IMG/VR virus record: IMGVR_UViG_3300050821_001464
Location: 1-41,591 of that record
Origin: a virus
Direction: 5' to 3' (one strand)
DNA: 41,591 bases
Shown here: positions 16,214 to 41,591 of the stretch, piece after piece
How positions within the stretch are numbered: position 1 is the first letter of the stretch
Layout of the letters: every line of letters begins with the position of its first letter
Notes under the pieces: generated by a model
What the model saw: the letters and a program-made list of their open reading frames with translations, nothing else
Told to the model about the DNA's origin: nothing
The model's database searches: none
Translations under genes and position numbers: made by a program

Positions 16214-16719
16214 CAATCCACGAATCGACTACCAATGCCTGGAAAATCATCTTGTCAGATATCAGTGCCGAGGGCACCAAGAAGGCCGTCTCGGCACTGA
16301 GTTTCGCCGCTGCTGCGATCCTTGATGATCTTGAGCCCGGCGCGACAATTTCCACCACAGAACTCGGCGAGCGTATCTGGCCAAAGTCGCCCAGCCGCGG
16401 GGATCATGAAACCCTGCGGCTGCGAAAGCGTATGTTCTCGCTCTTGCTCCAAACTGGGCAGAACGTGATTCTCCCGAATGCGCGTCGGCGCACCGACAGC
16501 GCCTACACCAATCGCTACGGTGTCGAGACGCACCCTTGGGAGTGGTTCAATCCAGCAGTGACCGCCAAGAAGGTCTCTCGCGTTGGCCTGGCCACGCCCA
16601 TGACTTCGGCTCAACAGGCCATGGATCAACTTCTCACGCACTACGGCGTGGGGCAGGATCAGCGGGATCGTGTGCTGCACCACATCGACCCTACTCAGGC
16701 GCCGAAAATGGCGCGCTAG
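16210..16719 (+). CDS. early protein, tandem paralogue 2 (ELGERIWP family)
   Basis: The protein is 169 residues. The ATG at 16210 overlaps the previous stop (ATGA) with GGAG seven bases upstream. It shares with the upstream protein the core LGERIWPKSPSRGDHETLRL, RKRMFSLLLQTGQ, LPNARRRTDSAYT and HPWEWFNPA. It has an added N-terminal helix and a C-terminal segment (SAQQAMDQLLTHYGVGQDQR). Duplication followed by divergence is clear. The 3' end overlaps the oppositely oriented primase-helicase gene by 29 bases. Confidence 0.75.
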   Translation: MTIHESTTNAWKIILSDISAEGTKKAVSALSFAAAAILDDLEPGATISTTELGERIWPKSPSRGDHETLRLRKRMFSLLLQTGQNVILPNARRRTDSAYTNRYGVETHPWEWFNPAVTAKKVSRVGLATPMTSAQQAMDQLLTHYGVGQDQRDRVLHHIDPTQAPKMAR

Positions 16720-18589
16720 GCTCGAAACACCAGCGGCGATCTCGCCCGCTGCCGAACGTCAAAACGCGTAGACTGGACTGAGCGAGGCGGATCAAGCTTC
16801 GCTCAGTTTCTTTTACGCGCGCCGCATACCTGGCCGGCGCTTCGTTCTCGAACTGCGGTGACAGCAAGCCGGCCAGTATGGCCGTAGAGGCTGCCAATTC
16901 AGCCGTAGTGAAGCCGTGCTCCATCAAGCAGGCTGCTACGTTCGAGCGGCTCAGCGGATCGGCGGCCTTCCTGGCGGCATTTATGGCCTCTCTATTGACG
17001 GGCAGGAAGACCAGCGAATCCGCCACCTTGCGGCCTTCCAGGTAAATAGGCTTTTCTCGCTCGGGGGCGCCGCGTTGTCTGACCACGTTCACGGATACGT
17101 GATTGGAGTGTGTGCTGTTTTGCACAGATTCATTTTCTCCGCGGTGGCAAGTCAAGAGCGTGTCGAAACCAGCTTCAAGGGCATTGGTCCCGCGGGTGCC
17201 GCGGGTGTTGTCCTTGCCGAAGTGAGCCGGCACGAGCACCGCAGCCTGCGGGAACATCTTTAGGAGGGCTCTGCAATGGAATATGAACCGGTTGGCATCG
17301 CCTGGGTCGTTCTCGTCACAACCCATCATCGCGGCAGAATAGGTATCAATTATGATCAGCCTGACAATACGATCATGTGCTGTCATCTGGATAGCCTTGC
17401 CGAACTCCGCAAAATCGTCAACAATGGAAAGGCGTGGTCCTTCCGACATATAGAACCCGATATCGTCGAGGGGATCAAAGCCGTGATATTGGCACGAGGC
17501 GACCCGGTGCATCTTGCTGAGCAGCGTAAAGCCCTCGTGGGCACCGTAGAACGTGCAACCCTGCAAGCTGGGTATCCCCATGCATCCCGCGCCGGTCGCT
17601 ATCCCAAGCGCGAACTCTAAGGCCAGGAAGCTCTTGAAACTGCCCTTGGCCGCCGTGAGCAAACAAAGTGCCCCTTCCGGGATCAGGTCTGGAACAATCC
17701 ACTCCGGAAGGGGTTGGTTCATCATCTCGGCGGCAGTGAGGAACTTGAAACGCGTTTTGGCCTCTGGAGGGCCATCTTGTGGTACAACATAATCAAAAGG
17801 TTCGCTCGACACTGCATGGGCGCCGGCCTCGTTCTGGCCATAGCGCTCGACGTTGCCGGCGATTGTCATCAGGTCGTCATGATCCCATGGTGGGATGCAA
17901 TGCGGGTTCCAATGGTCTTTGATCAGTGATACTGCGGTGGAGGGTCGTAACCCCAAGTCCCTAATAAGCTCTGACAGTACTTGGTATGTAGTGCTATTTC
18001 CTCCTCGTCCTGAGACTGCAACAACCCCTCCGCGCACGAGAGCGCCGAGGCGAGCAATTGCACGCTCGATATTGGCAACTCCGTCTCGCTCCTCAGTAAG
18101 AGCCCGAGCGGGGTCATGGCTTGCTGCAAGTCGAGCTTCAATTTCCAGAGGTAAGGCAACGGCTGGCCGGTCATTGTCCCATACATAGATACCATCCCCC
18201 GTTTGCGATGGTGGCAAAAGAGCATAGCTTCTTTGTCCGCGGGTGTCTATATGGTCGCCAAGCAATCCGACAGTAGCACGGCAAGAGCCCAAGAAATGAT
18301 AATGGCGCCCGCCACGGGGGGTACGTATCGATCGAGTAACGGGTAGATCGAGCGGTGTCGGATCAGCCCCAGGATCGACATCAATGGCAGCCAATCCAAG
18401 ATCATCAGGACAAAAAGCAATGTTAGCATCAGGGTGTCGAATGTAAAATTCATCGACTTGCTCCTTGGTCTCAAGGGCATTCCCGAGCCAGTCTTCCATC
18501 ATCGGAAATTTGGTGCCGGCTCGGCATGGAATGATCCTATAGCCTTCCTCCACATAGGCTAGGGCAGCGGCGTGGAGGGCTGTTGACAA
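16691..18589 (-). CDS. bifunctional primase-polymerase / RepA-type helicase
   Basis: The protein is 632 residues from a TTG (18589-18587) with GGGAG eight bases upstream. The N-terminal Prim-Pol domain (residues 5-150) has AYVEEGYRIIPCRAGTKFP, the metal-binding LAAIDVDPGAD (Asp70, Asp72), RGGRHYHF (His96/His98) and DTRGQRSYALLPPS. The middle is a linker helical domain. The C-terminal ATPase has a P-loop TAAKGSFKS (about 311-319) and Walker B LIIIDTYSAAMMG (about 413), typical of RepA/AAA_25 replicative helicases. It should prime and unwind phage DNA. It is the only leftward gene inside the rightward early region, which suggests a separate promoter or a past inversion or insertion. Confidence 0.85.
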   Translation of the reverse strand: MSTALHAAALAYVEEGYRIIPCRAGTKFPMMEDWLGNALETKEQVDEFYIRHPDANIAFCPDDLGLAAIDVDPGADPTPLDLPVTRSIRTPRGGRHYHFLGSCRATVGLLGDHIDTRGQRSYALLPPSQTGDGIYVWDNDRPAVALPLEIEARLAASHDPARALTEERDGVANIERAIARLGALVRGGVVAVSGRGGNSTTYQVLSELIRDLGLRPSTAVSLIKDHWNPHCIPPWDHDDLMTIAGNVERYGQNEAGAHAVSSEPFDYVVPQDGPPEAKTRFKFLTAAEMMNQPLPEWIVPDLIPEGALCLLTAAKGSFKSFLALEFALGIATGAGCMGIPSLQGCTFYGAHEGFTLLSKMHRVASCQYHGFDPLDDIGFYMSEGPRLSIVDDFAEFGKAIQMTAHDRIVRLIIIDTYSAAMMGCDENDPGDANRFIFHCRALLKMFPQAAVLVPAHFGKDNTRGTRGTNALEAGFDTLLTCHRGENESVQNSTHSNHVSVNVVRQRGAPEREKPIYLEGRKVADSLVFLPVNREAINAARKAADPLSRSNVAACLMEHGFTTAELAASTAILAGLLSPQFENEAPARYAARVKETERSLIRLAQSSLRVLTFGSGRDRRWCFEPSAPFSAPE

Positions 18590-18643: not shown

Positions 18644-19018
18644 ATGGCTTTACCACTAAATTCTGATCGGCTGCGCTTGGTCTATGACCTTCTGGCCGAG
18701 TGTCCTCCCTTTGACAAGTGGAACTTGCCCCACGGGGAAGACGTTCACTTTCGCGTGAGCCGCAAGGTTAAAGAGTACGGCCAGCATAGACGAACGATAT
18801 CGAATCGTGGTAAGTACAAACATCATATTGAAATCTCGGCAGTGAATGTCACTACGTTGGAGACATTGGTGCGGACTATGGCCCACGAGATGATCCACGT
18901 TCACGAGCAGGCCAATCAGGTCTGCACCCCGCATCAATCTACGCTACACACCGAGGCGTTCCGCTGCTTTGCGCTAGAAGTCTGCAAGGTGCACGGCTTC
19001 AATCCTGACGCCTTCTAG
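18644..19018 (+). CDS. SprT-like zinc metalloprotease
   Basis: The protein is 124 residues. The HExxH motif is in RTMAHEMIHVHEQANQ (His81, Glu82, His85), with a third zinc ligand probably in LHTEAFRCFA (His102). This is the SprT/Spartan-type arrangement. Family members cleave proteins crosslinked to or bound on DNA, and phage copies often lie in replication regions, as here next to a SNF2 helicase. It lacks the C-terminal zinc ribbon of bacterial SprT, so it is the catalytic core only. It begins 55 bases from the start of the divergent primase gene. Confidence 0.85.
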   Translation: MALPLNSDRLRLVYDLLAECPPFDKWNLPHGEDVHFRVSRKVKEYGQHRRTISNRGKYKHHIEISAVNVTTLETLVRTMAHEMIHVHEQANQVCTPHQSTLHTEAFRCFALEVCKVHGFNPDAF

Positions 19019-19026
19019 GAGATACA

Positions 19027-19338
19027 ATGGGGATATTTTCGATAGCCCAAGACCTTCGGGCTTTGCGGGAGGGTCAAACACAACTGTTGAAGGAACTCAA
19101 GATGGTTGATGCGAATGTTGCGGCTCTGAAGATTGGTCTCGACCAGCTTACGGGGGATGTGGCCGCGGTTGCGGCTGCTTTGAAGACGGCTCTGGACGCC
19201 CTGTCGGCGGGTATCAGCGCCGAGAATGAAACGGCTGTCACGGCAGCGGTTGCTGAGATCTCTTCGATCCATGCAAGTCTTGCGGCTCTAGTCCCGCCTC
19301 CCCCGGCGTCCACTGGGGCGGCCACTACGGCGGCCTAA
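19027..19338 (+). CDS. coiled-coil protein, 103 aa
   Basis: The start has AGGAG five bases upstream. The sequence is Ala/Leu/Val-rich in heptad patterns (LRALREGQTQLLKELKMVDA, VAAVAAALKTALDALSAGIS) and ends in a Pro/Ala/Thr tail (LVPPPPASTGAATTAA). Similar short coiled coils with Pro-rich tails are found in many phages without known function. It overlaps the helicase ATG by one base (TAATG), so both are made together. Confidence 0.65.
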   Translation: MGIFSIAQDLRALREGQTQLLKELKMVDANVAALKIGLDQLTGDVAAVAAALKTALDALSAGISAENETAVTAAVAEISSIHASLAALVPPPPASTGAATTAA

Positions 19339-21023
19339 TGCACCTGGATTACAACCAGGTCAACGATACCTTCATACTTCGGGTGCCCAGAAATGGGCAC
19401 TCGATTAAAGGTCTCATGCATGAGCACGGCCTTGACTTCTCGACTGCTGCCTCTTCGGCCAATGAAGCTGTTCTATTTACAACAGAGCCTTACGCGGCCG
19501 CTTCATTCGCAGGCGATGCTACAGATCGCGCACGAGATAAACTGGCTCCAATCCTTACTGAGATCGAGCAGAGTTGGAAAGCGGCCAGTACGGCCAACTA
19601 CGCAGTACCGGAAGATAAGGAACTCTGGGAATTTCAAAGAGCAGACCTCGATTATGCATTGCGGCGCCGGAATACACTTATTGGAGATCAACCCGGCCTT
19701 GGCAAGACTGAGACGGCGATTGTATTCGCCAATGAAATACACGCCAAAAATATCCTCGTCATTTGCCCTGCCAACATCCGTATACAATGGGCACACCGTA
19801 TCGCAGAGTGGTCCACCACTCCTTCGTGGTCTCGACGTGTGCATCTAACCAAGCAGGCAAAACATGGCACCCATCCGCCAGAAACAGGAAAACAAGTCTG
19901 GAACGTCGTCTCCTACGATCTCGCCCGAAATGAGGGAGTTGGAAAGGCTATTGAACGGTACCATTACGATCTATGTATCCTCGACGAACCACACTATCTC
20001 AAGGACAGTGACAGTCAGAGAACTCGTGCAATCTTCGGTGGGGGCTCGGTTCGACATTTCCGACCTATTGCGGATCAGTGCGAACGAATTCTCGGGCTCA
20101 CTGGTACTCCGCTGCCGAATAGACCTAGAGAAGCTTTCACCCTAGCGAAAGGGTTGTGCTATGACGCAATCGACTGGTTGTCCGAGGACAATTTCAAAGC
20201 TCGCTTCAATCCCTCGCAGCGAATTGAGAGGATTGATCCTGAAACTGGCCGAAGCAAATTCTTTATCGATGAACGTAGCGGAAGACATTATGAACTCCAA
20301 AACCGTCTACGTGCAAATTTCATGGTGCGACACCTCAAACACGGACCGAACGGGGTCATGGGGCAGCTTAAGCTCCCTGTCTATGATCTGATTCAGGTGA
20401 CGGAGACAGCTAGTGTCAAGCAAGCCCTCAAAGCCGAAAGTTTCCTGCATATCGATCCAGAGAACCTGGAGGGGGCGGACATTCAAGTTCTTGGCCAAAT
20501 TGCTACTGCGCGTCGCCTCATGGGCGTTGCGATGGCACCGCAAGTTGCAGATTATGTTTCTGACTTGATCGAGAGTGGCGAAGAGAAGATCACTTTGTTC
20601 GCCTGGCATATCGAGGTACTTGACATTTTGGAAAATAGGTTGTCTAAGCACGGCTTGGTCAGGATAGATGGAAGCACCGGAGCACAGCGGAAAGAGCGCC
20701 ATGTCAAGCAATTCATCACCGATCCTGGAACCAAAATTATTTTGGGAAATCTTCTCTCTATGGGCGTCGGGACCGACGGATTACAACAAGTTTGTAACCA
20801 TGGTCTCATCGCGGAGCCGGATTGGACGCCCGGGGTTAATATCCAAGCGTTCGACCGCTTGGATCGAGGAGGTCAACGGCAGCAAGTACAGGGTGACATT
20901 TTCGTTGCACCTGGAAGTCTCGCGGAAAAAATCCTCGCCAAAGCGCTCCGCAAGGGTCAGACAATACACAAAACTCTCGACGATCGCATAGGAGACCAGC
21001 ATGCCACAGATCACGGCCGGTAA
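19338..21023 (+). CDS. SNF2-family DNA helicase/translocase
   Basis: The protein is 561 residues. The N-terminal 90 residues are a small extra domain. The first motor domain has the Q-like WEFQRADLDYAL, the P-loop GDQPGLGKTETAI (116-128), Walker B CILDEPHYLKD (DEPH in place of DEAH, 216-219) and motif III LTGTPLPNRP. The second has LFAWHIEVLDIL, RIDGSTGAQRKERH, the motif V region LGNLLSMGVGTDGLQ and the arginine-finger motif FDRLDRGGQRQQV. This SNF2 type recurs in phage modules with the DUF2800 nuclease, the DUF2815 protein and a Pol I-like polymerase, as found downstream. It probably remodels replication intermediates. Confidence 0.85.
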   Translation: MHLDYNQVNDTFILRVPRNGHSIKGLMHEHGLDFSTAASSANEAVLFTTEPYAAASFAGDATDRARDKLAPILTEIEQSWKAASTANYAVPEDKELWEFQRADLDYALRRRNTLIGDQPGLGKTETAIVFANEIHAKNILVICPANIRIQWAHRIAEWSTTPSWSRRVHLTKQAKHGTHPPETGKQVWNVVSYDLARNEGVGKAIERYHYDLCILDEPHYLKDSDSQRTRAIFGGGSVRHFRPIADQCERILGLTGTPLPNRPREAFTLAKGLCYDAIDWLSEDNFKARFNPSQRIERIDPETGRSKFFIDERSGRHYELQNRLRANFMVRHLKHGPNGVMGQLKLPVYDLIQVTETASVKQALKAESFLHIDPENLEGADIQVLGQIATARRLMGVAMAPQVADYVSDLIESGEEKITLFAWHIEVLDILENRLSKHGLVRIDGSTGAQRKERHVKQFITDPGTKIILGNLLSMGVGTDGLQQVCNHGLIAEPDWTPGVNIQAFDRLDRGGQRQQVQGDIFVAPGSLAEKILAKALRKGQTIHKTLDDRIGDQHATDHGR

Positions 21024-21645: not shown

Positions 21646-21899
21646 AATGCTGCAAGCTATGTGGGTTTGACCTTGCTACTGGCCGACATGGGGTGACTTG
21701 GTGCATATCAGCAGAAGAATGGAGAGAACAACGTGACAACAGAGACAAGAGCAATACACAGTCCCTTAGGCGCGAGTGGCGCCGAACGGTGGATGAATTG
21801 TCCCGGCAGTGTTTCACTTTTGAAGAGGATGGACCTTCCGGAGACGGACGAGCCAGAGTATCGATCGAAGGGCACAAGTGCGCATTCTGTGGGCTATGA
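21642..21899 (+). CDS. possible small Cys-motif protein overlapping the nuclease gene
   Basis: An ATGA-coupled frame of 85 residues begins MKCCKLCGFDLATGRHGVTW and ends GHKCAFCGL, so CxxC pairs stand at both ends like a zinc ribbon. However, two thirds of it (167 bases) overlap the start of the Cas4-like nuclease gene in another frame. The second CxxC falls in that overlap and may be coincidental. The start has GGAGG ten bases upstream. It may serve mainly to couple translation across the 87-base gap before the nuclease start. Confidence 0.4.
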   Translation: MKCCKLCGFDLATGRHGVTWCISAEEWREQRDNRDKSNTQSLRREWRRTVDELSRQCFTFEEDGPSGDGRARVSIEGHKCAFCGL

Positions 21900-22869
21900 G
21901 TGCCTGACGCAGGGCAAGGACGCCTGGGAGTTTGCCGGTACAGAGCACGGTAAGCACGAGGCCGACATGGAAATCATGACGGCCATACAGGTCTATGTGG
22001 ACGAGTGCCGCAGCCTGATCACTCCAACCGCCGAGGTGTTCCATGAGTTCAACATCGCTGACCCCGATTTCCATCCGGATTTCTTTGGCACTCTTGACTT
22101 CGGTGCAGTCGATGGCGCTACGATGTATATTCGGGATTACAAGCATGGCGCGGGTATCGCAGTTGACTGCGAATGGAACCCTCAGATCATGTATTATGCG
22201 TGGGGCCTGTTACGCCGGTTTCCTAATGTTGAGACCATTGACTTGGCCATTGTGCAGCCTCGTGCGTTTCATCCACAAGGCCCAATTCGCCGTTGGACCG
22301 TATCTGCGGAGGAATTACGCAGATGGGCACTTGATGATCTCCGACCAGCCATGGCACGGACGGAAGAAGATGGCTCGCTCGATGCTGGTCCGTGGTGCCG
22401 GTTCTGTCCCGCGAAGCTGGTTTGCCCCTTGATGGTCAGCCTCTTTGGGGCTGCCTGTACGGCGGATCCGAAGCTAGTAGTCAAGCTCGATACTCAGAGC
22501 CTTGGCCGATCGTATCAGTACACTGCCGCCGTGAAGTCATACCTCAAGGCTCTGGAGGAGGAGACGCTACGCCGTCTAATGGCTGGTGACGAGGTGCCTG
22601 GTACGAAGCTTGTGAACAAGAAGGCCAATCGTATTTGGAAAGATGGGGCCGAGAAGTATCTGTTGGCTAGCCCGGTCGGCATGATTTACACGGAGCCCCA
22701 GTTGAAGTCTCCAGCCCAGCTTGAAGACCTTGGCCCCCTGGCCAAGAAGCTTGTAGCCGAGTGGGCCTATACTCCCGTTACTGGCCTCACTGTCGCGCTT
22801 GCTTCTGATAAGAGGGTGGCTCAGAAAGTAGAACCCGGGTCTGTTGCTTTCAAAGACGTAACTCCATGA
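21733..22869 (+). CDS. Cas4/RecB-like PD-(D/E)XK exonuclease (DUF2800)
   Basis: The protein is 378 residues from a GTG at 21733 (GGAGAG seven bases before). Nuclease motifs are the His in GTSAHSVGYE (about residue 51), FGTLDFGAV (Asp122) and IRDYKHGAG (Asp135, Lys137), followed by the QIMYYAWGL helix. Cysteines at 24 (NCPGS) and CRFCPAKLVC (222, 225, 231) would hold an iron-sulfur cluster as in Cas4/AddB. It likely resects or processes DNA ends in replication or recombination with the single-strand-binding protein encoded next. Its 3' end differs from a duplicated copy that follows the stop (22884-22973), so the C-terminus has been remodelled. Confidence 0.85.
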   Translation: MTTETRAIHSPLGASGAERWMNCPGSVSLLKRMDLPETDEPEYRSKGTSAHSVGYECLTQGKDAWEFAGTEHGKHEADMEIMTAIQVYVDECRSLITPTAEVFHEFNIADPDFHPDFFGTLDFGAVDGATMYIRDYKHGAGIAVDCEWNPQIMYYAWGLLRRFPNVETIDLAIVQPRAFHPQGPIRRWTVSAEELRRWALDDLRPAMARTEEDGSLDAGPWCRFCPAKLVCPLMVSLFGAACTADPKLVVKLDTQSLGRSYQYTAAVKSYLKALEEETLRRLMAGDEVPGTKLVNKKANRIWKDGAEKYLLASPVGMIYTEPQLKSPAQLEDLGPLAKKLVAEWAYTPVTGLTVALASDKRVAQKVEPGSVAFKDVTP

Positions 22870-22974: not shown

Positions 22975-23664
22975 ATGGAAAAGCCTACCTCGCTCGTGAA
23001 GATTGATGTGCCGGTGACGATGATCTTCCCGGCAGTCATCACGCCCAAGCCCTATAAGAACCGTGCCGGCTCGGAAGCCTACAGCGCCAGCTTCGTGCTC
23101 AAGGCCGACCACCCGGCGATCGCAGCCCTCAAGGCGTCCATTGTCGCGGTGGCCAAGGAAAAGTGGCCGGGCCGAGACTTAGCTGCCGCGGTAGCTGCCC
23201 GCGAAGTCATGCTCCCCTTCCAGAAGGGCGACACGCTTATCGCCAAGCGGCAGGCTGATCTCCAGTCGAAGGGCAAGGCGTACAAGGGCGAGAACGATTT
23301 CATGTCGGGCGCCCTCGTGCTCAAGGCTTCGACCAAGAAGTACCCGCCTCAACTCGGTTACTGGGACAGCAAGGCCAAGAAGTGGATCGACCTTGACGAC
23401 CAGAGCAAGGGTCAGCATGGTAGCAAGTTCTACTTCGGAGCCGAGGCCCTTGTCGAGATCAACCTGTCGGCCTATGACAAGGTGAACTCGGAGGCCAAGG
23501 ATGGCGTTACGGCCTACCTCCAGAAGGTCTATGTGACCGGCAAGGGTAAGCGCCTGATCGGTGGTGCTCCCGGCTCTGAGACGTTCTCAGCCTACGTCGG
23601 GCACGCCAGCGATGAAGACCCCACCCAAGGTATGGGTCGGCCAGAGGAATGGGGCGATTTCTGA
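22975..23664 (+). CDS. single-stranded DNA-binding-like protein (DUF2815)
   Basis: The protein is 229 residues. It starts with VKIDVPVTMIFPAVITPKPY, then an OB-fold-like body (YSASFVLKADHPAIAALKAS, GDTLIAKRQ, FMSGALVLKAST, FGAEALVEINLSAYD). It ends in an acidic tail (HASDEDPTQGMGRPEEWGDF). This matches the DUF2815 family, thought to be T7 gp2.5-like single-strand binding proteins, whose acidic tails recruit polymerase and helicase. Its position between nuclease and polymerase agrees. AGGAG lies seven bases before the ATG. Confidence 0.8.
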   Translation: MEKPTSLVKIDVPVTMIFPAVITPKPYKNRAGSEAYSASFVLKADHPAIAALKASIVAVAKEKWPGRDLAAAVAAREVMLPFQKGDTLIAKRQADLQSKGKAYKGENDFMSGALVLKASTKKYPPQLGYWDSKAKKWIDLDDQSKGQHGSKFYFGAEALVEINLSAYDKVNSEAKDGVTAYLQKVYVTGKGKRLIGGAPGSETFSAYVGHASDEDPTQGMGRPEEWGDF

Positions 23665-23675
23665 TCGGGTGATCG

Positions 23676-25643
23676 GTGGCACTCTCTTGGGTAGTGCTTG
23701 ACTTCGAAACGATCTCCGGGCTCGACGTTACGGACGTTGGAGCCTGGAGATACGCCGAGGATCCTAGCACCGAGATTGTCTGCTGTTGCTATAGCCATGG
23801 TGGAGTAGGGGCTCAAACCTGGACGCCTGATGACCCTGGCCGCGGGCTAGTTGAGTTTGCTCGCGACGATAGCTGCACCTTCATAGCCTTCAACGTTCAG
23901 TTCGAGAAGGCTATCTGGCGCCACATCATGGTGCCGCAGTTCGGCTTCTCTGACGTGCCGAACGAGCGATGGCATGATGTGCAGGCCGTAGCGGCCATGA
24001 AGGTTGTGCCGCAGTCGTTGGACAAGCTCGCTTCCGTGTTGAAATTTACCCACCAAAAGGGTGATTTTCGCGCACAAGATATGAGCAAGTTCAATAAGAA
24101 GACCGGGCAGAGCTTGCTCACACCAGAAGTGCGGGAGAAGTGCTACTCGTACTGCAAACAGGATATCCGAGCGGAGGTAGAAGGACATGATCGACTTGGA
24201 TTTCTGCCAAGAGGCGAAAGAAAAGTTTGGCTCCTTAACCAACGGGTTAACGAACGAGGGATCCGCTTGGATCTCACCTACATCGAAAAATGCCAAGAAG
24301 TTGTTCAGCGTGCTTCGATACCTTTGGTCGCAAGGTTTCGAGATCTCACTGGACTTAAACCGTCCCAAGGCGAAAAATTCAAAGACTGGATCCGAGCCCA
24401 AGGTGTAGAGGGCCTAGACAGCTTGGCCAAAGGGCTGCTGACGGAGGCACTGAGCGATGATGAAGAGATACCTGGAACGCTATTTACCGGTGGTATGGAC
24501 TTTCCGGGGCCGGTGCGTGAAGCCTTGGAGATCCGTCAAACGATCGGTCACGAGAGCATCAAGAAACTCCAGCGGATGGTGGATTGTGTTAGTGCTGACG
24601 GCCGCTCTCGGGGCCTACTTCAATATCATGGGACTGGTCCTGGCCGCAGCGCTGGTCGCCTTTGGCAGCCTCATAATCTCCCTAAGCCGACTTTCAAATA
24701 TGAGATGAATGCTCTCGTCGATGCTCTGATGACAGGAGACCCGCAATGGGTGGAAGACGTGATCGGGAAGCCGGCGATCGAATGTGTGGCTGCCGGGCTC
24801 CGACATGCTTTAGTGTCCGATCCTGGGCGGGTGTTTATGTCTGCCGACTATGCTGGTATCCAAGCCCGTTTGGTCCTTGCGTTGGCCGGCCAGATGGACA
24901 AGGCTGCAATGTTGGCGGCTGGGAAGGACGTGTACGCAGACATGGCCCAGGCCATCTACCGCCGGCCAATCGACAAGGAGAAGGATCCGGTCGAGCGGCA
25001 GATTGGTAAGAACTGCGTCCTTGGCCTCGGGTTCCAGATGGGGGCCGGTACCTTCCAGGGGAAGATGGCACGCGATCGGGATATCCCGTTCTGTCAAAGC
25101 TGTGTGACCGCCTACCGCAAGGAGTGGGCACCCAAGGTTCCTTACGTCTGGTACGGCTTGGAGGACGCGGCTGCTGCGACAGTGCACACAGGGCGTCCGC
25201 ATGAAGCCTACGGCATACTGTACGCCATCAAGGACCAATGGCTTACTGCCAGGCTACCCTCGGGCCGACTGATGTGGTACTACAACCCGCAGCCTACCCG
25301 CCGGCAGGCGCCATGGGATCCCAAGGAACTCAAGAACGGATTCACCTACCAGGCTACCAAGATGGGTCAGTTCAAGACGATTGACGCCTTCGGGGGTCAG
25401 TTGACCGAGAATGTCATCATGGGCATGGAACGGGATATCATGACCAAGGCGCAACTGACCTGTGAGGCTAACGGCCTGCCTGTGGTACTTGAAGTACATG
25501 ACGAGGTAGTGGTCGAGCCCCTGGCCAAGGATGCTGACGAGAAGGCATTCCATCAAATTATGCTTGACACCGACGATTGGGTGCGCTCTATCCAGGTTCC
25601 GATTGCTGTTGAGGGGTGGGTCGGTGACCGCTACAGGAAATAG
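23676..25643 (+). CDS. family A DNA polymerase (3'-5' exonuclease + polymerase)
   Basis: The protein is 655 residues from a GTG at 23676. The exonuclease has VVLDFETIS (Asp9, Glu11), AFNVQFEKAIW (Glu in place of the usual Asp of exo II) and YCKQD (Tyr159, Asp163). The polymerase motifs are A (SADYAGIQARLVLAL, Asp391), B (RQIGKNCVLGLGFQMG, Arg441, Lys445) and C (EVHDEVVV, Asp609). Two sites differ from E. coli Pol I: Gln396 replaces the steric-gate Glu710, and Leu449 replaces Phe762. It lacks the 5'-3' exonuclease domain. It should be the replicative polymerase of the module. Confidence 0.9.
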   Translation: MALSWVVLDFETISGLDVTDVGAWRYAEDPSTEIVCCCYSHGGVGAQTWTPDDPGRGLVEFARDDSCTFIAFNVQFEKAIWRHIMVPQFGFSDVPNERWHDVQAVAAMKVVPQSLDKLASVLKFTHQKGDFRAQDMSKFNKKTGQSLLTPEVREKCYSYCKQDIRAEVEGHDRLGFLPRGERKVWLLNQRVNERGIRLDLTYIEKCQEVVQRASIPLVARFRDLTGLKPSQGEKFKDWIRAQGVEGLDSLAKGLLTEALSDDEEIPGTLFTGGMDFPGPVREALEIRQTIGHESIKKLQRMVDCVSADGRSRGLLQYHGTGPGRSAGRLWQPHNLPKPTFKYEMNALVDALMTGDPQWVEDVIGKPAIECVAAGLRHALVSDPGRVFMSADYAGIQARLVLALAGQMDKAAMLAAGKDVYADMAQAIYRRPIDKEKDPVERQIGKNCVLGLGFQMGAGTFQGKMARDRDIPFCQSCVTAYRKEWAPKVPYVWYGLEDAAAATVHTGRPHEAYGILYAIKDQWLTARLPSGRLMWYYNPQPTRRQAPWDPKELKNGFTYQATKMGQFKTIDAFGGQLTENVIMGMERDIMTKAQLTCEANGLPVVLEVHDEVVVEPLAKDADEKAFHQIMLDTDDWVRSIQVPIAVEGWVGDRYRK

Positions 25644-26034
25644 GAAGCCTCCAGTTTATCGGAAGGAACTGGCAGATGGCACGAAAGTCACTCCCAAGAA
25701 GCCGAAAGTCAATAGCCGAGCCAAGGGTGCCCGCGGTGAACGTGCCTTTGCCTCTTTTCTACGAGATCAGGGACTTACTGCGTATCGCGGTCAGCAGTTC
25801 CGAGGAGGCACAGACAGCCCTGATGTTGTTTGTCCAGATCTTCCCTACTGCCACTTCGAAGTCAAAAACTGTAAAGCCTCGTTGGAGCCGTATGTCTGGA
25901 TTGCGCAAGCGATTAAAGATGCTGGACCAGGGAAACTCCGGATAGTAGCTCACCGGGCGAAGCATCACGACTGGCTGGCGATAATGCCCATTGAAGATCT
26001 CATGAAGCTGGTGCTCAATGGCGGCCAAGGATGA
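25624..26034 (+). CDS. PD-(D/E)XK nuclease, Holliday-junction-resolvase-like
   Basis: The protein is 136 residues from a GTG at 25624 inside the polymerase end; GAGG lies upstream. A Lys-rich start (KVTPKKPKVNSRAKG) leads to ARGERAFASFLRDQGLTAYR, GTDSPDVVCPDL and CHFEVKNCKA, the E...D...ExK layout of small resolvase-like endonucleases. The later part has YVWIAQAIKDAG and KLRIVAHRAKHHDWLAIMP. It would cut branched replication or recombination products. The family matches small phage resolvase-type nucleases (not RuvC). It is coupled to the polymerase by a 20-base overlap. Confidence 0.75.
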   Translation: MTATGNRKPPVYRKELADGTKVTPKKPKVNSRAKGARGERAFASFLRDQGLTAYRGQQFRGGTDSPDVVCPDLPYCHFEVKNCKASLEPYVWIAQAIKDAGPGKLRIVAHRAKHHDWLAIMPIEDLMKLVLNGGQG

Positions 26035-26209
26035 TCGATACAACAAATCTCCTCTTGGGCGAGAACGGATGCGGAGATACTGGAAATCTCCTTTAGGTCG
26101 TGCGGCCGATAACCGATATCGCCGCACACCACGTGGTAGAGAGAAGGACAGACTATGGCGCCGCAACCAAAAACAGACGCAGACCGACTTGCCGACGCCA
26201 GTGAGATAA
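26018..26209 (+). CDS. tiny basic repeat protein, 63 aa
   Basis: The frame overlaps both neighbours (17 and 55 bases). It encodes about three units of roughly 15 residues: DRYNKSPLGRERM, RRYWKSPLGRAAD and NRYRRTPRGREKD, then RLWRRNQ. KSPLGR is coded as CTT-GGG-CGA in one copy and TTA-GGT-CGT in the next, so the codons differ but the residues do not, which supports real translation. Such [RY].[KS]P.GR repeats resemble the DNA-binding lead-ins of some phage HNH nucleases. A nucleic-acid-binding role is an inference; there is no strong ribosome binding site. Confidence 0.55.
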   Translation: MAAKDDRYNKSPLGRERMRRYWKSPLGRAADNRYRRTPRGREKDRLWRRNQKQTQTDLPTPVR

Positions 26210-27261
26210 TCCGGCAGAAGCTTCAGAGAATCCAACACCTTGAGAAACAGGTGAAGGAGATCCAGAAGCATAACGATTCCGAGGCCAAGATCCGAGAAGA
26301 GATATTCCGGCTGTCAGAGTACATTCCGGATCCGCCGAAATGGCTGACCCAGAAGCGGGATCCGAAGCTGCCAGGCGTCCCTATGACGATTTGGAGCGAT
26401 TTTCATTTTGGCGAGCAGGTCTTCAAAGAACAGGTCGGGGGTGTCAACGAATTCAATTTGCGTATTGGCCAACAGCGGGTGAAGCGCTTGGTTGACACGA
26501 CCATTGACCTGTGCTTGAACCATATGGTCAACCCGGAGTATCCTGGAGTAGTGGTCTGTCTCGGGGGTGACATGATCACCGGATCAATTCATGACGAACT
26601 TGCAGCGACGAATGACGGCACGGTCCAAGACGCGCTCTTTGCTGTCGAAGATAGCCTCATTGCAGCGCTCACAACTATGGCCGATGCTTTCGGCCGGGTG
26701 TTCGTTCCCTGTGTTATCGGAAACCATGGACGCGATACGATCAAGCCAAGGTTTAAAAATCGTCCCAAACAATCGTTTGAGTGGGGCCTATATCACCACC
26801 TCGAACGTCACTTCAAGAACGATAAGCGTCTTGAGTTCAAAATTCCGAACGAAACAGATTACCACTTCACTGTCCAGGGGCACACTTTCACCCTCACTCA
26901 TGGCGACACTCTTGGGGTCAAAGGGGGCGACGGAATCATTGGTGTTATTGGGCCTATCGCTCGCGGTGCAACGAAGCTTGGCCGGTCAGAAGCCCAGATC
27001 GGCCGCGCGTTCAAGACCCTCCTGATCGGTCATTACCACACCTATTTCCACGGTGGAGACGCGGTGCCTGTGGTAGCGAACGGATCGTTGATTGGATACA
27101 ACGAGTATGCCCGCCTCCAACTCCGTGTGCCGTACTCCCGCCCTTGCCAAGCTTTGTGGTTCATGCACGCAAAGCACGGTGTCACGGCCGCTTGGCCAGT
27201 CTATCTTGATGGCCAGCGGCAATCGCATGACGACAAACGATGGGTAACATGGAGCGAATGA
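26155..27261 (+). CDS. metallophosphoesterase (Mre11/SbcD-like fold)
   Basis: The protein is 368 residues. A helical/coiled-coil N-terminus (LQRIQHLEKQVKEIQKHNDS) leads to all the metal motifs: WSDFHFGE (Asp82, His84), LGGDMITG (Asp139), VIGNHGRD (Asn190, His191), LTHGDTLG and LIGHYHTY. The two-metal site cleaves phosphodiester bonds. Phage relatives sit in replication regions and may act as nucleases on DNA or on cyclic or modified nucleotides; the substrate is not visible here. There is no partner SbcC-like ATPase in the window. Confidence 0.8.
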   Translation: MAPQPKTDADRLADASEIIRQKLQRIQHLEKQVKEIQKHNDSEAKIREEIFRLSEYIPDPPKWLTQKRDPKLPGVPMTIWSDFHFGEQVFKEQVGGVNEFNLRIGQQRVKRLVDTTIDLCLNHMVNPEYPGVVVCLGGDMITGSIHDELAATNDGTVQDALFAVEDSLIAALTTMADAFGRVFVPCVIGNHGRDTIKPRFKNRPKQSFEWGLYHHLERHFKNDKRLEFKIPNETDYHFTVQGHTFTLTHGDTLGVKGGDGIIGVIGPIARGATKLGRSEAQIGRAFKTLLIGHYHTYFHGGDAVPVVANGSLIGYNEYARLQLRVPYSRPCQALWFMHAKHGVTAAWPVYLDGQRQSHDDKRWVTWSE

Positions 27262-27722
27262 TGCAGCGATATGTCTACCTTGCCGGCCCGATTATGGGCC
27301 GAACCAAATCCGAGGCCAACGACTGGCGGAAAGATGCGGCCTGGAGGCTAGCCGACCAAGGCATCGTAGGCATATCGCCGCTTCGCTGTGAGCCGTTGCA
27401 AGGGGAGCGCTATGGCGTCAGTCATGACCCTCTCTTTGGTACGCCGCGGGCGATCGGGGCCAAGAACCGATTCGATGTGCGGGCCGCCAACATCATTCTG
27501 GCCTACATGCCAGAAGAGCAGCCCTTGTCGCTCGGCACACTCGGCGAGATCTTCTGGGCTGACGCCTATGGCAAACAGGTGATCATGGTCACGACCGATC
27601 ACAAGCTGCTGGAACATCCGGTCCTGGATGCTGCGGTGGACTGGAAGCTCTCAACTCTGGACGAGGCGATCGACGTGTGTATCGGGATCCTCGGCGGATA
27701 CAATGGAGGGAAGAATGTGTGA
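27258..27722 (+). CDS. nucleoside 2-deoxyribosyltransferase-like protein
   Basis: The protein is about 154 residues. It shows the nucleoside-binding start RYVYLAGPIMGR, a middle AKNRFDVRAANIILAYMP (Asp that orients the base) and the catalytic-Glu segment SLGTLGEIFWADAYGKQVIM. The family swaps bases on deoxyribosides or hydrolyses deoxynucleotides. The start overlaps the preceding stop as ATGA, with ATG 27261 an alternative. Its neighbour 28161-28526 also looks like a purine dNTP enzyme, so together they may reshape the deoxynucleotide pool. Whether it transfers or only hydrolyses cannot be told. Confidence 0.8.
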   Translation: MMQRYVYLAGPIMGRTKSEANDWRKDAAWRLADQGIVGISPLRCEPLQGERYGVSHDPLFGTPRAIGAKNRFDVRAANIILAYMPEEQPLSLGTLGEIFWADAYGKQVIMVTTDHKLLEHPVLDAAVDWKLSTLDEAIDVCIGILGGYNGGKNV

Positions 27723-28158
27723 ACGATGGGTTCAGCGTCTCCTGTTGGCTTTACTTATCGGGTCGGGTTTGGCAGCCGTGTGCAATCTTGCTTATTTACG
27801 GATAGCTCATAGTCGCCCCTCTGGCCAATGGGCTCAGGCTTCTCCTGAGCGTCAGCAGTGGTTTGAACAAGCCCGCCGGCCAGGGAGTGACCCCAAGGGT
27901 GACTGGCACTCTATCCAAAGCTGTTGCGCCGAGGACACGGATGCCTATGAGACGGATGACTTCGAGACTGAGGACGGGGAACTCTACGCCACCATAACAG
28001 GCGGCGGCAATGGCATACCAGCCGGCTCACGCATCCACATCCCGAAAGATAAGATCCTCACGGACCTGGATTTCCTGCGGCGGAATCCTACCGGCCACGG
28101 CTGGGTGTGGATGATCGGGCGAACTGTCTTCTGCTACGTCCTACCGTCTGGAGGTTGA
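27715..28158 (+). CDS. membrane-anchored protein with SCC motif, 147 aa
   Basis: The start at 27715 has GGAGG five bases upstream and overlaps the previous gene. A signal-anchor (VQRLLLALLIGSGLAAVCNL) is followed by a polar region: WFEQARRPGSDPKGDWHSIQ, SCCAEDTDAYETDDFETEDG and then IPKDKIL...VFCYVLPSGG. The WF...RRP...SCC...D...W..VP...C..P plan is a secreted conserved family of Gram-negative bacteria and their phages with unknown function. The cysteines should form disulfides in the periplasm. It is out of place among nucleotide enzymes; an envelope function is possible. Confidence 0.7.
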   Translation: MCERWVQRLLLALLIGSGLAAVCNLAYLRIAHSRPSGQWAQASPERQQWFEQARRPGSDPKGDWHSIQSCCAEDTDAYETDDFETEDGELYATITGGGNGIPAGSRIHIPKDKILTDLDFLRRNPTGHGWVWMIGRTVFCYVLPSGG

Positions 28159-28160
28159 CC

Positions 28161-28526
28161 ATGAAGACCGATGCTAAAGAGCGGAAGGCTACTCCCATGG
28201 CCCGCGGTCTGCTCGACTACTTCCCTGACGCCTTGGCCGCCGTGGCAGAGCTATCCAGGATCGGGAATGAGCAGCACAACCCTGGCCAGCCGATGCACTG
28301 GGCCAGGGAGAAGTCCACCGACCATGCCGACTGCATCATCCGTCACATGGTTGACCGGGGGACGGCGGACACAGATGGTGTGCTTCACTCGACGAAGGTG
28401 GCGTGGCGGGCACTTGCGCAGCTACAGCTTGAATTAGAGGTGCGGCCTCGGCCAGTAGCTTCTCCTCACGAGGATCATATTCACGGCGAGCTTCGGCATT
28501 TCGGTGTGCCTGATGTTGGCGTTTAG
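28161..28526 (+). CDS. dATP/dGTP diphosphohydrolase-like protein (MazZ-related, DUF5664)
   Basis: The protein is 121 residues, with GGAGG six bases before the ATG. It matches the N-terminal all-alpha domain of phage dATP/dGTP diphosphohydrolases: GLLDYFPDALAAVAELSRIG, NEQHNPGQPMHWAREKSTDH, ADCIIRHMVDRGTADTDGVL and STKVAWRALAQLQLELE. The EQH, DHADCIIRH and D..G..H.TKVAWRALA segments correspond to metal- and substrate-binding helices of the MazG-like fold. In Z-DNA phages, MazZ supplies precursors for 2-aminoadenine, but many phages without PurZ also carry this domain. The last 30 residues overlap an opposite gene. Confidence 0.75.
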   Translation: MKTDAKERKATPMARGLLDYFPDALAAVAELSRIGNEQHNPGQPMHWAREKSTDHADCIIRHMVDRGTADTDGVLHSTKVAWRALAQLQLELEVRPRPVASPHEDHIHGELRHFGVPDVGV

Positions 28527-39621: not shown

Positions 39622-41591
39622 TCACACGTCCGTTGTCGTAATAAACCCGCCGTAAGCTACGATCGAGGCCGGGTACGGCCGAAGGATTTGCCACGACAAC
39701 ATGCTGTCGAAGTCATACCCGTCTGCCAAACTGTCGCGCACTATGCCACTGAACAGCACTGGCGGTAGGATCTGGTTCTGACCCAGGTCTCTGAAGTATA
39801 TCGGATTGAGGGTCGCCCCAAAGTCTGTCCCAACCTGGATACCGTTGCTGTTCTGGACCTGAAGCCCGAATCGGTTCGTACGCTTGGTCTTGGCAAACCC
39901 CAAGCCCATATGAACTCCAGTATCCTGAGCCAAGGCTGGTCTTAAGAGTTGGCCTTGAGACGTGAATGTTGTACCGACTACACATGGGAACCCCGCTGTG
40001 GTTACGTCGTGAGTGATCGTGTATCCGGTCGGACAAGTCGGCGCATTGCCGCCGATCTTCACCAAGTCCGTGCCGATGAATAGCTGGCACCAAGTCCCGC
40101 TAACATCGCCAGATCCGTTGATACGAGCGACAGCGCTAGCAACAGTATGATCAGTGGCGCCATAGAAGATGAGACTGTTAGAAGCATCATCATAAGCCTG
40201 GATAAACGTGTGCCCGCTGATATCATGATAGACTCCCGGTACAGCAAAGATGCAGTACAAGCCTGTGGTCGTGTCGATCCGGTACAATGTGCCGATATGG
40301 TTGTTCGATCCGGTCTGTTGGGCCAAGAAGCAGAAGAGGCCGAAGCGGCACGAGCCTCGCGCCATCATGTCGCCAAGGTCGGCGATGTTGGAGTTACTGA
40401 GCGGTATCTGCCAAATCACGCCGAAAGGTATCAGAGGTTTGGCATTGGTTCCGTTGTTGAATCCATCCACGTTGTAGGGGAACGTCGAGATCTTGACCAG
40501 GTATTGCTGATTGCCCGAGGCGTTCGTGTTCTGAACGATGAACATCAAGTTGTTGTCGATCTTGTCTACTAACGCGCCCGTGACCCCGGTTATGGTTGTC
40601 CAGGTCGGGTCGATCTGCTGTGGAGTGAGTGTGCCAACCTTGCCGAAGAAAGCACCGACAACGCCAGCCGAACTCCCTGGCCGACCAACACCGTAGATAG
40701 GCACAACAACGTGAGGGCCTCCCCAGATGTTCTGACAAGCGTAGAGCACGCCACCGGAGAAGAAGCCCGCCTTGAGGAAATTAAGGATTGCCTGCTGCCC
40801 CTCTTCCTGCGTCACCACATAGATAGTCAGTGTATGCGTATCGCCAGCCGTGATGAAAAACGGAACTGAAGTCGGAGTGAAAGTAGTCGTGCCGTCCGCG
40901 TTTGTAGTCTTGGAGTTGTTCATGCCGCCGCCGGCCGCGACGTTCGCCCCTAGCGCGCCTCCAGGAGACATGAGCCAGGGCGAGGGCGAGAGACCCTGAT
41001 ACTGAAGCCCCTGACCATTGCCCGCAATGAAAGACCCATCAACACCATAGTTGAGCGTGATGTTCCTGGTCGATCCGCCCGTGCCGACCGCAACCAGCCA
41101 ATCCCCTTTCAAGGTAGCAACGTCCATCGACGTGGGATTGATCATCCCCGGATTGTCGATGTTGAAAGTAGACATATTTAGGGTCGGTCCGAACGTGCTG
41201 CTCACGCCAGCCACGTAGGTTGCGAGATCGGTATTTGGGTTGACCTTCACAACCGCGCTATAGTTCCCGCTGTCGCTTCCAGTGTAGAGAGCATTGGCTT
41301 TCTGAGCCGCTGTCTGCGTCGGTATCGTAGCCACATTGTTCGAAGCCGCCACCCAGTTGAGTGGAGCAGCAACCCCACTGATCGCCGACCACTGGGCATC
41401 CGACAACTCCGTCGCATTCAGTGTACTGAAGATACGAAGCCGGCTGTTGGTCAGGCTCTCGATATAGGCCAGGCTGTTTGTCCAATCGACGATTACGTTG
41501 TCCTTGCGGACTTGATCTCCGGTATCCAGAGTCGGAGCAAACGCCTGATAGGTCGTGACCGCACGCAATGTACGGGCCGGGCCGATCGTGA
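39622..41591 (-). CDS. tail nozzle-like protein (5' end cut by window edge)
   Basis: At least 655 residues are encoded; the frame stays open to the right edge (TIGPARTLRAVTTYQAFAPT), so the true start lies outside. The sequence is beta-rich throughout (Thr/Gly/Asn/Val). The C-terminus has TKRTNRFGLQVQNSNGIQVG, LFSGIVRDSLADGYDFDSML and SWQILRPYPASIVAYGGFI. The G-x-x-x-G-x-D-F ... LFxG...DGYDxDxxxxxxQxxPxPxxIxAxxG order is one I associate with podovirus tail nozzle or tubular-B-type proteins, which close the tail tip until infection. Position before the ejection genes agrees with this. Confidence 0.55.
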   Translation of the reverse strand, partial: TIGPARTLRAVTTYQAFAPTLDTGDQVRKDNVIVDWTNSLAYIESLTNSRLRIFSTLNATELSDAQWSAISGVAAPLNWVAASNNVATIPTQTAAQKANALYTGSDSGNYSAVVKVNPNTDLATYVAGVSSTFGPTLNMSTFNIDNPGMINPTSMDVATLKGDWLVAVGTGGSTRNITLNYGVDGSFIAGNGQGLQYQGLSPSPWLMSPGGALGANVAAGGGMNNSKTTNADGTTTFTPTSVPFFITAGDTHTLTIYVVTQEEGQQAILNFLKAGFFSGGVLYACQNIWGGPHVVVPIYGVGRPGSSAGVVGAFFGKVGTLTPQQIDPTWTTITGVTGALVDKIDNNLMFIVQNTNASGNQQYLVKISTFPYNVDGFNNGTNAKPLIPFGVIWQIPLSNSNIADLGDMMARGSCRFGLFCFLAQQTGSNNHIGTLYRIDTTTGLYCIFAVPGVYHDISGHTFIQAYDDASNSLIFYGATDHTVASAVARINGSGDVSGTWCQLFIGTDLVKIGGNAPTCPTGYTITHDVTTAGFPCVVGTTFTSQGQLLRPALAQDTGVHMGLGFAKTKRTNRFGLQVQNSNGIQVGTDFGATLNPIYFRDLGQNQILPPVLFSGIVRDSLADGYDFDSMLSWQILRPYPASIVAYGGFITTTDV

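Follow-up and report, generated by a model that had tools for sequence, protein, structure and literature searches.

A glutamine steric gate and a predicted purine-nucleotide enzyme pair in the replication block of a probable PurZ-less podovirus-type phage

Introduction

Does a phage DNA polymerase with an altered nucleotide pocket, encoded together with two putative purine-nucleotide enzymes, copy chemically unusual DNA? The question is raised by a single IMG/VR record, IMGVR_UViG_3300050821_001464, of which positions 1 to 41,591 were analysed (41,591 bases, hereafter the window). Three genes of one operon are at issue:

23676-25643, + strand: family A DNA polymerase with a 3'-5' exonuclease domain, 655 residues (PF00476, E 8e-11; phrog_17, E 3e-72)
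27240-27722, + strand: enzyme of the nucleoside 2-deoxyribosyltransferase (NDT) superfamily (PF05014, E 3e-9)
28161-28526 (open reading frame 28107-28526), + strand: DUF5664 / dGTP_diPhyd_N protein (PF18909, E 3e-10; phrog_27780, E 6e-40)

A first-pass annotation had suggested that this combination could mean a 2-aminoadenine (Z) phage lacking PurZ, a different base modification, or ordinary scavenging of deoxynucleoside triphosphates (dNTPs), an interpretation that is partly supported by our results. We consider it probable that the locus, most likely the replication region of a podovirus-type phage without PurZ, combines a Leu762-type replisome with a purine-nucleotide catabolic pair, and that its polymerase copies ordinary DNA.

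The polymerase active site

Motif A of the polymerase, D391-Y-A-G-I-Q396-A-R398, places Gln396 five residues beyond the metal-binding aspartate, at the site of the steric-gate residue Glu710 of Pol I. Motif B, R441-QIG-K445-NCV-L449-GLG-F453, has Leu449 at the Phe762 site and Phe453 at the Tyr766 site, and motif C is formed by H608-D609-E610. The motifs bear out the first two substitutions as originally annotated; Phe453 had not been mentioned. The AlphaFold model (predicted local distance difference test score, pLDDT, 89.8) matches Klenow and other PolA structures, including 7pbk. In Pol I, Tyr766 and Glu710 are a hydrogen-bonded pair, and both are said to be conserved in every family A polymerase (PMC4882331). 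No report of glutamine at the steric gate of a phage family A polymerase emerged from a literature search, and the double change Gln710/Phe766 looks to be the part that is new to the polymerase specialist.

Scans yielded 205 distinct polymerase sequences, including four DpoZ, the polymerases of Z phages. Leucine occupies position 762 in all of the other 201 (201/201) and, being universal in the family, was rejected as a special feature. Phe766 is present in 88 of the 201, 76 of them with a glutamate gate. Position 710 is only ever Glu or Gln among these roughly 200 relatives; Gln occurs in 12, each time together with Phe766 (12/12). Once a scan whose search pattern included the Glu motif was dropped from the base rate, the Glu:Gln ratio at the gate was 118:12. 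On a tree made without the columns of these residues, well-supported branches make three separate changes to Gln necessary, and the Phe/Tyr state at 766 changes about nine times. Glutamine thus appears to have arisen at the gate at least three times, each in a Phe766 background. Such coupling fits the loss of the Glu710-Tyr766 hydrogen bond: Phe453 would first have removed the tyrosine hydroxyl that binds Glu710, making the subsequent change of Glu to Gln tolerable.

The gate glutamate bars ribonucleotides in Pol I (PMC9324360) and the Taq mutant E615G admits 2'-modified nucleotides (PMC9738464); Gln396 and Phe453 might therefore relax sugar selection and let some ribonucleoside monophosphates into the phage DNA. 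We think this unlikely, as glutamine retains the bulk of glutamate, while the mutants engineered for relaxed selection have small side chains, and the restriction of position 710 to Glu or Gln suggests that bulk is under selection. Because Gln396 is similar in size to glutamate, exclusion of ribonucleotides should persist.

Two observations on the wider family may be recorded here. A relative in an Elusimicrobia metagenome-assembled genome (MAG) contig has motif B interrupted by more than 300 residues; the insertion begins with Cys, ends in His-Asn and is followed by Cys, and resembles an intein sited in the active-site helix. The 'Patescibacteria' MAG REEB161 contains five contigs, each with a polymerase of the window's family; these are probably binned phage contigs.

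PurZ, DpoZ and the 2-aminoadenine question

Several features are shared with Z phages. Phenylalanine at the Tyr766 site, Phe453 in the window, is the sole characteristic residue common to both DpoZ clades (PMC8599892); Leu449 fits DpoZ-2, which also has Leu762; the overall fold is the same, as the 7pbk match indicates; and Wayne-type Z phages likewise possess NDT and DUF5664 proteins. The polymerase could then be a DpoZ of a phage that makes 2-aminoadenine DNA without a PurZ of its own, or whose PurZ gene falls within the unsequenced stretch of its genome. Phe766 is nevertheless undiagnostic, being common in phages without PurZ, and the steric gate is still Glu in the four DpoZ references, all from phages that encode PurZ (phiVC8, SH-Ab 15497, Wayne and Ghobes). 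They lie apart from the window polymerase on the tree (support 99, long branches), so the phylogenetic comparison with DpoZ that the first-pass annotation had suggested goes against its proposal.

PurZ (PF00709) has no match at E ≤ 1 in the window, in agreement with the first reading of the sequence, and was found in none of 101 related records (36 + 46 + 19, several of which are fragments); the same search detected all four Z-phage controls (4/4). A PurZ gene in the window or its relatives was accordingly rejected. The window has no terminal repeats, and its right-end tail gene (39622-41591) is cut, with 648 codons in the window, whereas the frame in relatives can reach about 1,500; in most of them it corresponds to the C-terminal portion of a frame of 900-1540 codons. 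Judging from how far this open reading frame lies from the left-end gene in 42-47 kb relatives, the missing DNA amounts to approximately 3-6 kb inside the tail genes, where a hidden PurZ is unlikely. Taken with the universality of Leu762, and with differences in the DUF5664 and NDT proteins described below, these results do not sustain the proposed link to PurZ-less 2-aminoadenine synthesis, which we regard as barely plausible. Nothing found indicates chemically unusual phage DNA; most likely the DNA is canonical.

The DUF5664 protein

The match to DUF5664 (PF18909) scores 40.6 bits against a curated cut-off of 27, with ATG 28161 as the likely start; PF18909 is the only domain found, with no match to a DUF550 or MazG-like domain. 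In Z phages, MazZ activity resides in DUF550 or MazZ-2, DUF5664 being a separate domain (PMC12884076); the dATP/dGTP diphosphohydrolase-like gene of the first-pass annotation is confirmed as a DUF5664 gene, and its MazZ label is imprecise. Z-phage DUF5664 homologues have measured activity on dATP, dGTP and dUTP (PMC12884076).

Within the polymerase clade, two distant DUF5664 subtypes occur and replace each other among relatives. The characterised Z-phage proteins, those of Wayne (an Arthrobacter phage) and SH-Ab 15497 (an Acinetobacter phage) among them, fall with the canonical subtype. The window protein is of the other subtype, on a branch apart from the Z-phage subfamily in a weakly supported tree. 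It also differs from the Wayne and SH-Ab 15497 proteins in having no DUF550 fusion and no accompanying PurZ. Arg61-His62, Asp70 and His76 are conserved in both subtypes, as is a glycine position, making similar chemistry likely. By homology, we predict a purine-dNTP pyrophosphohydrolase.

The nearest named carriers of the window subtype are Sphaerotilus phage vB_SnaP-R1 (gp27, 62%) and Xanthomonas phage phiL7 (P37, 43%), neither with an annotated PurZ; vB_SnaP-R1, one of the Autographiviridae, encodes an RNA polymerase of its own and has a different type of DNA polymerase. The cyanophage MazG, a proposed adjuster of the dNTP pool, is also a phage dNTP pyrophosphohydrolase, but of another protein family and with dGTP and dCTP as substrates (PMC6850273). 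DUF5664 is concentrated in the polymerase clade (33 of 49 whole records, versus 3 of 31 more distant ones); a link with Phe766 or the Gln gate was nonetheless rejected, as independent pairs on the tree show none.

The NDT-superfamily protein

The NDT-like enzyme recognised at first pass is present as PF05014. Its nearest sequences in the PDB are BlsM and CMP N-glycosidases, and NDTs and MilB are structural matches to its model (pLDDT 89). All 26 homologues compared share Tyr13, Ser97, Gly99, Thr100 and Glu103. Alignment with BlsM and DmtZ places Asn76 at the catalytic Asp/Asn site, opposite Asn77 of DmtZ; Asp79, considered as the catalytic aspartate, was dropped on this ground. Both the fold and the Tyr, Asp-or-Asn and Glu positions (Tyr13, Asn76, Glu103) are thus those of the superfamily. 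The protein is a predicted (deoxy)nucleoside 5'-monophosphate N-glycosidase, possibly a transferase.

A Z-phage NDT homologue has measured activity on dAMP, and DmtZ performs a natural deoxyribose-5-phosphate transfer (PMC12884076). The window protein shares the NDT fold and the catalytic Tyr and Glu positions with DmtZ (Ghobes, Wayne) and with DNPH1, MilB and BlsM, as well as an uncharged residue near the phosphate site, Ser97; the catalytic Asn is found in DmtZ too. The relationship to DmtZ is very remote (E 0.39 to Wayne): in the remote alignment the essential Asp12 of DmtZ is replaced by Met, and the window protein is not fused to Dut. The Asn76 correspondence favours the 2-aminoadenine proposal and the missing Asp12 weighs against it.

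T4-like marine phages commonly have homologues 40-48% identical to the window protein, flanked by uvsW-like and gp47-like genes and with no DUF5664 neighbour. Because of these homologues, NDT was rejected as a marker of Z.

The NDT-DUF5664 pair

In about 17 loci, NDT immediately precedes DUF5664 or lies a short way upstream of it; both DUF5664 subtypes are represented, and several of these loci are outside the polymerase clade. This recurrent adjacency is the best indication that the two enzymes may act in sequence; it also lends weight to purine dNTP metabolism, in line with the scavenging option of the first-pass annotation, and the pairing with two distant DUF5664 subtypes looks new. In the scheme that we favour, the DUF5664 protein would most likely cleave dATP and dGTP to dAMP and dGMP, and the NDT-fold protein would cleave (or transglycosylate) the resulting deoxynucleoside monophosphates (dNMPs) to the free base and deoxyribose-5-phosphate, steps that during infection would adjust the dNTP pool or clear unwanted purine nucleotides. 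Similar parts are found in PurZ0 Z phages (PMC12884076), and DUF5664 and DmtZ-like enzymes may here work outside a 2-aminoadenine context.

The same two steps could serve a PurZ-independent modified purine: DUF5664 would strip dATP and dGTP to dNMPs, NDT would swap the base, as the natural transfer by DmtZ makes conceivable, and the altered pocket, in which two residues said to be universal are changed, would accept the product. We consider this highly unlikely. In independent pairs on the tree, DUF5664 is associated with neither the Gln gate nor Phe766, most DUF5664 carriers have no NDT, Pfam and PHROG matches revealed no base-synthesis gene in the operon, and the gate inspects the sugar rather than the base.

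Alternatively, the pair may act in counter-defence or on a host purine-nucleotide signal instead of the dNTP pool. Its patchy occurrence, apparent movement between phages with differing gene neighbourhoods and the mutual replacement of DUF5664 subtypes would suit such a role; the genes are, however, inside a replication operon near the polymerase, where no defence-related neighbour was seen, and we judge this explanation rather unlikely.

Several results also weigh against a catabolic pair beside a Gln-gated polymerase that copies ordinary DNA. The fold matches of the NDT protein are a mixture of transferases and hydrolases. NDT is present in only 6 of the 49 clade records, and the pair is therefore optional. 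A profile of the window DUF5664 subtype matches the Wayne protein at E 4e-6, compared with about 1e-24 to 1e-23 for the canonical subtype; the Z-phage enzymes thus match the window subtype weakly, and its substrate is assigned by homology. As for the polymerase, the independent-pairs test of the Gln/Phe association is not significant, three origins being too few to reach significance.

The replication operon

The remaining genes of the region are as follows:

16691-18589, - strand: PrimPol-AAA primase/helicase (PF09250, E 9e-22; PF13481)
19338-21023, + strand: SNF2-family helicase of the replication module (PF00176, E 3e-15; phrog_62)
21733-22869, + strand: DUF2800, RecB/PD-(D/E)XK-type exonuclease (PF10926, E 6e-59; PF12705; phrog_69, exonuclease)
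22975-23664, + strand: Enc34-type single-strand DNA-binding protein (PF10991, E 6e-11)
25531-26034, + strand: small PD-(D/E)XK nuclease, resolvase-like (PF24608, E 3e-5, under the cut-off; phrog_244)
26155-27261, + strand: metallophosphoesterase-type DNA exonuclease (phrog_284, exonuclease, E 2e-44)
27715-28158, + strand: small protein with an N-terminal hydrophobic segment, read from the sequence, between NDT and DUF5664

The 5' end of the resolvase-like frame (25531-26034) overlaps the polymerase gene and a later start is likely. The small protein between NDT and DUF5664, the start of which overlaps the NDT stop, has no Pfam or PHROG match. The PrimPol-AAA protein on the opposite strand is the probable priming partner of the polymerase; together with the SNF2 helicase, the RecB-like DUF2800 nuclease, the single-strand DNA-binding protein, PolA and the nucleases it would make up the replisome, with the catabolic pair in the same operon.

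Viral PolA replisomes of Leu762 Group I have been characterised by SNF2 and RecB-like genes beside polA (PMC6302109). The window shares both genes, the leucine at position 762 (Leu449) and, among the window genes scanned, the lack of a recognised ribonucleotide reductase. Its Phe766 and Gln710 were not found described in PMC6302109. By residue and neighbours, the replisome appears Leu762-Group-I-like. Portal, capsid, terminase and internal-virion genes in the window suggest a podovirus-like phage.

At the head of the operon (18644-19018) is a SprT-like metallopeptidase gene, with a PF10263 match just under the cut-off; it is found in 6 of 11 Gln-gated versus 5 of 28 Glu-gated relatives, in raw counts. 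The idea of genes peculiar to Gln-gated phages was rejected, as the same genes of the operon are present with a Glu gate.

Implications

The occurrence of the NDT-DUF5664 pair outside Z phages implies that the nucleotide-pool enzymes of phages with Z-DNA belong to a wider phage repertoire, and NDT or DUF5664 genes alone must not be taken as signs of modified DNA. The clade in which both Glu710 and Tyr766 are altered is a natural experiment on the working of the sugar gate, and offers ready enzymes for testing it.

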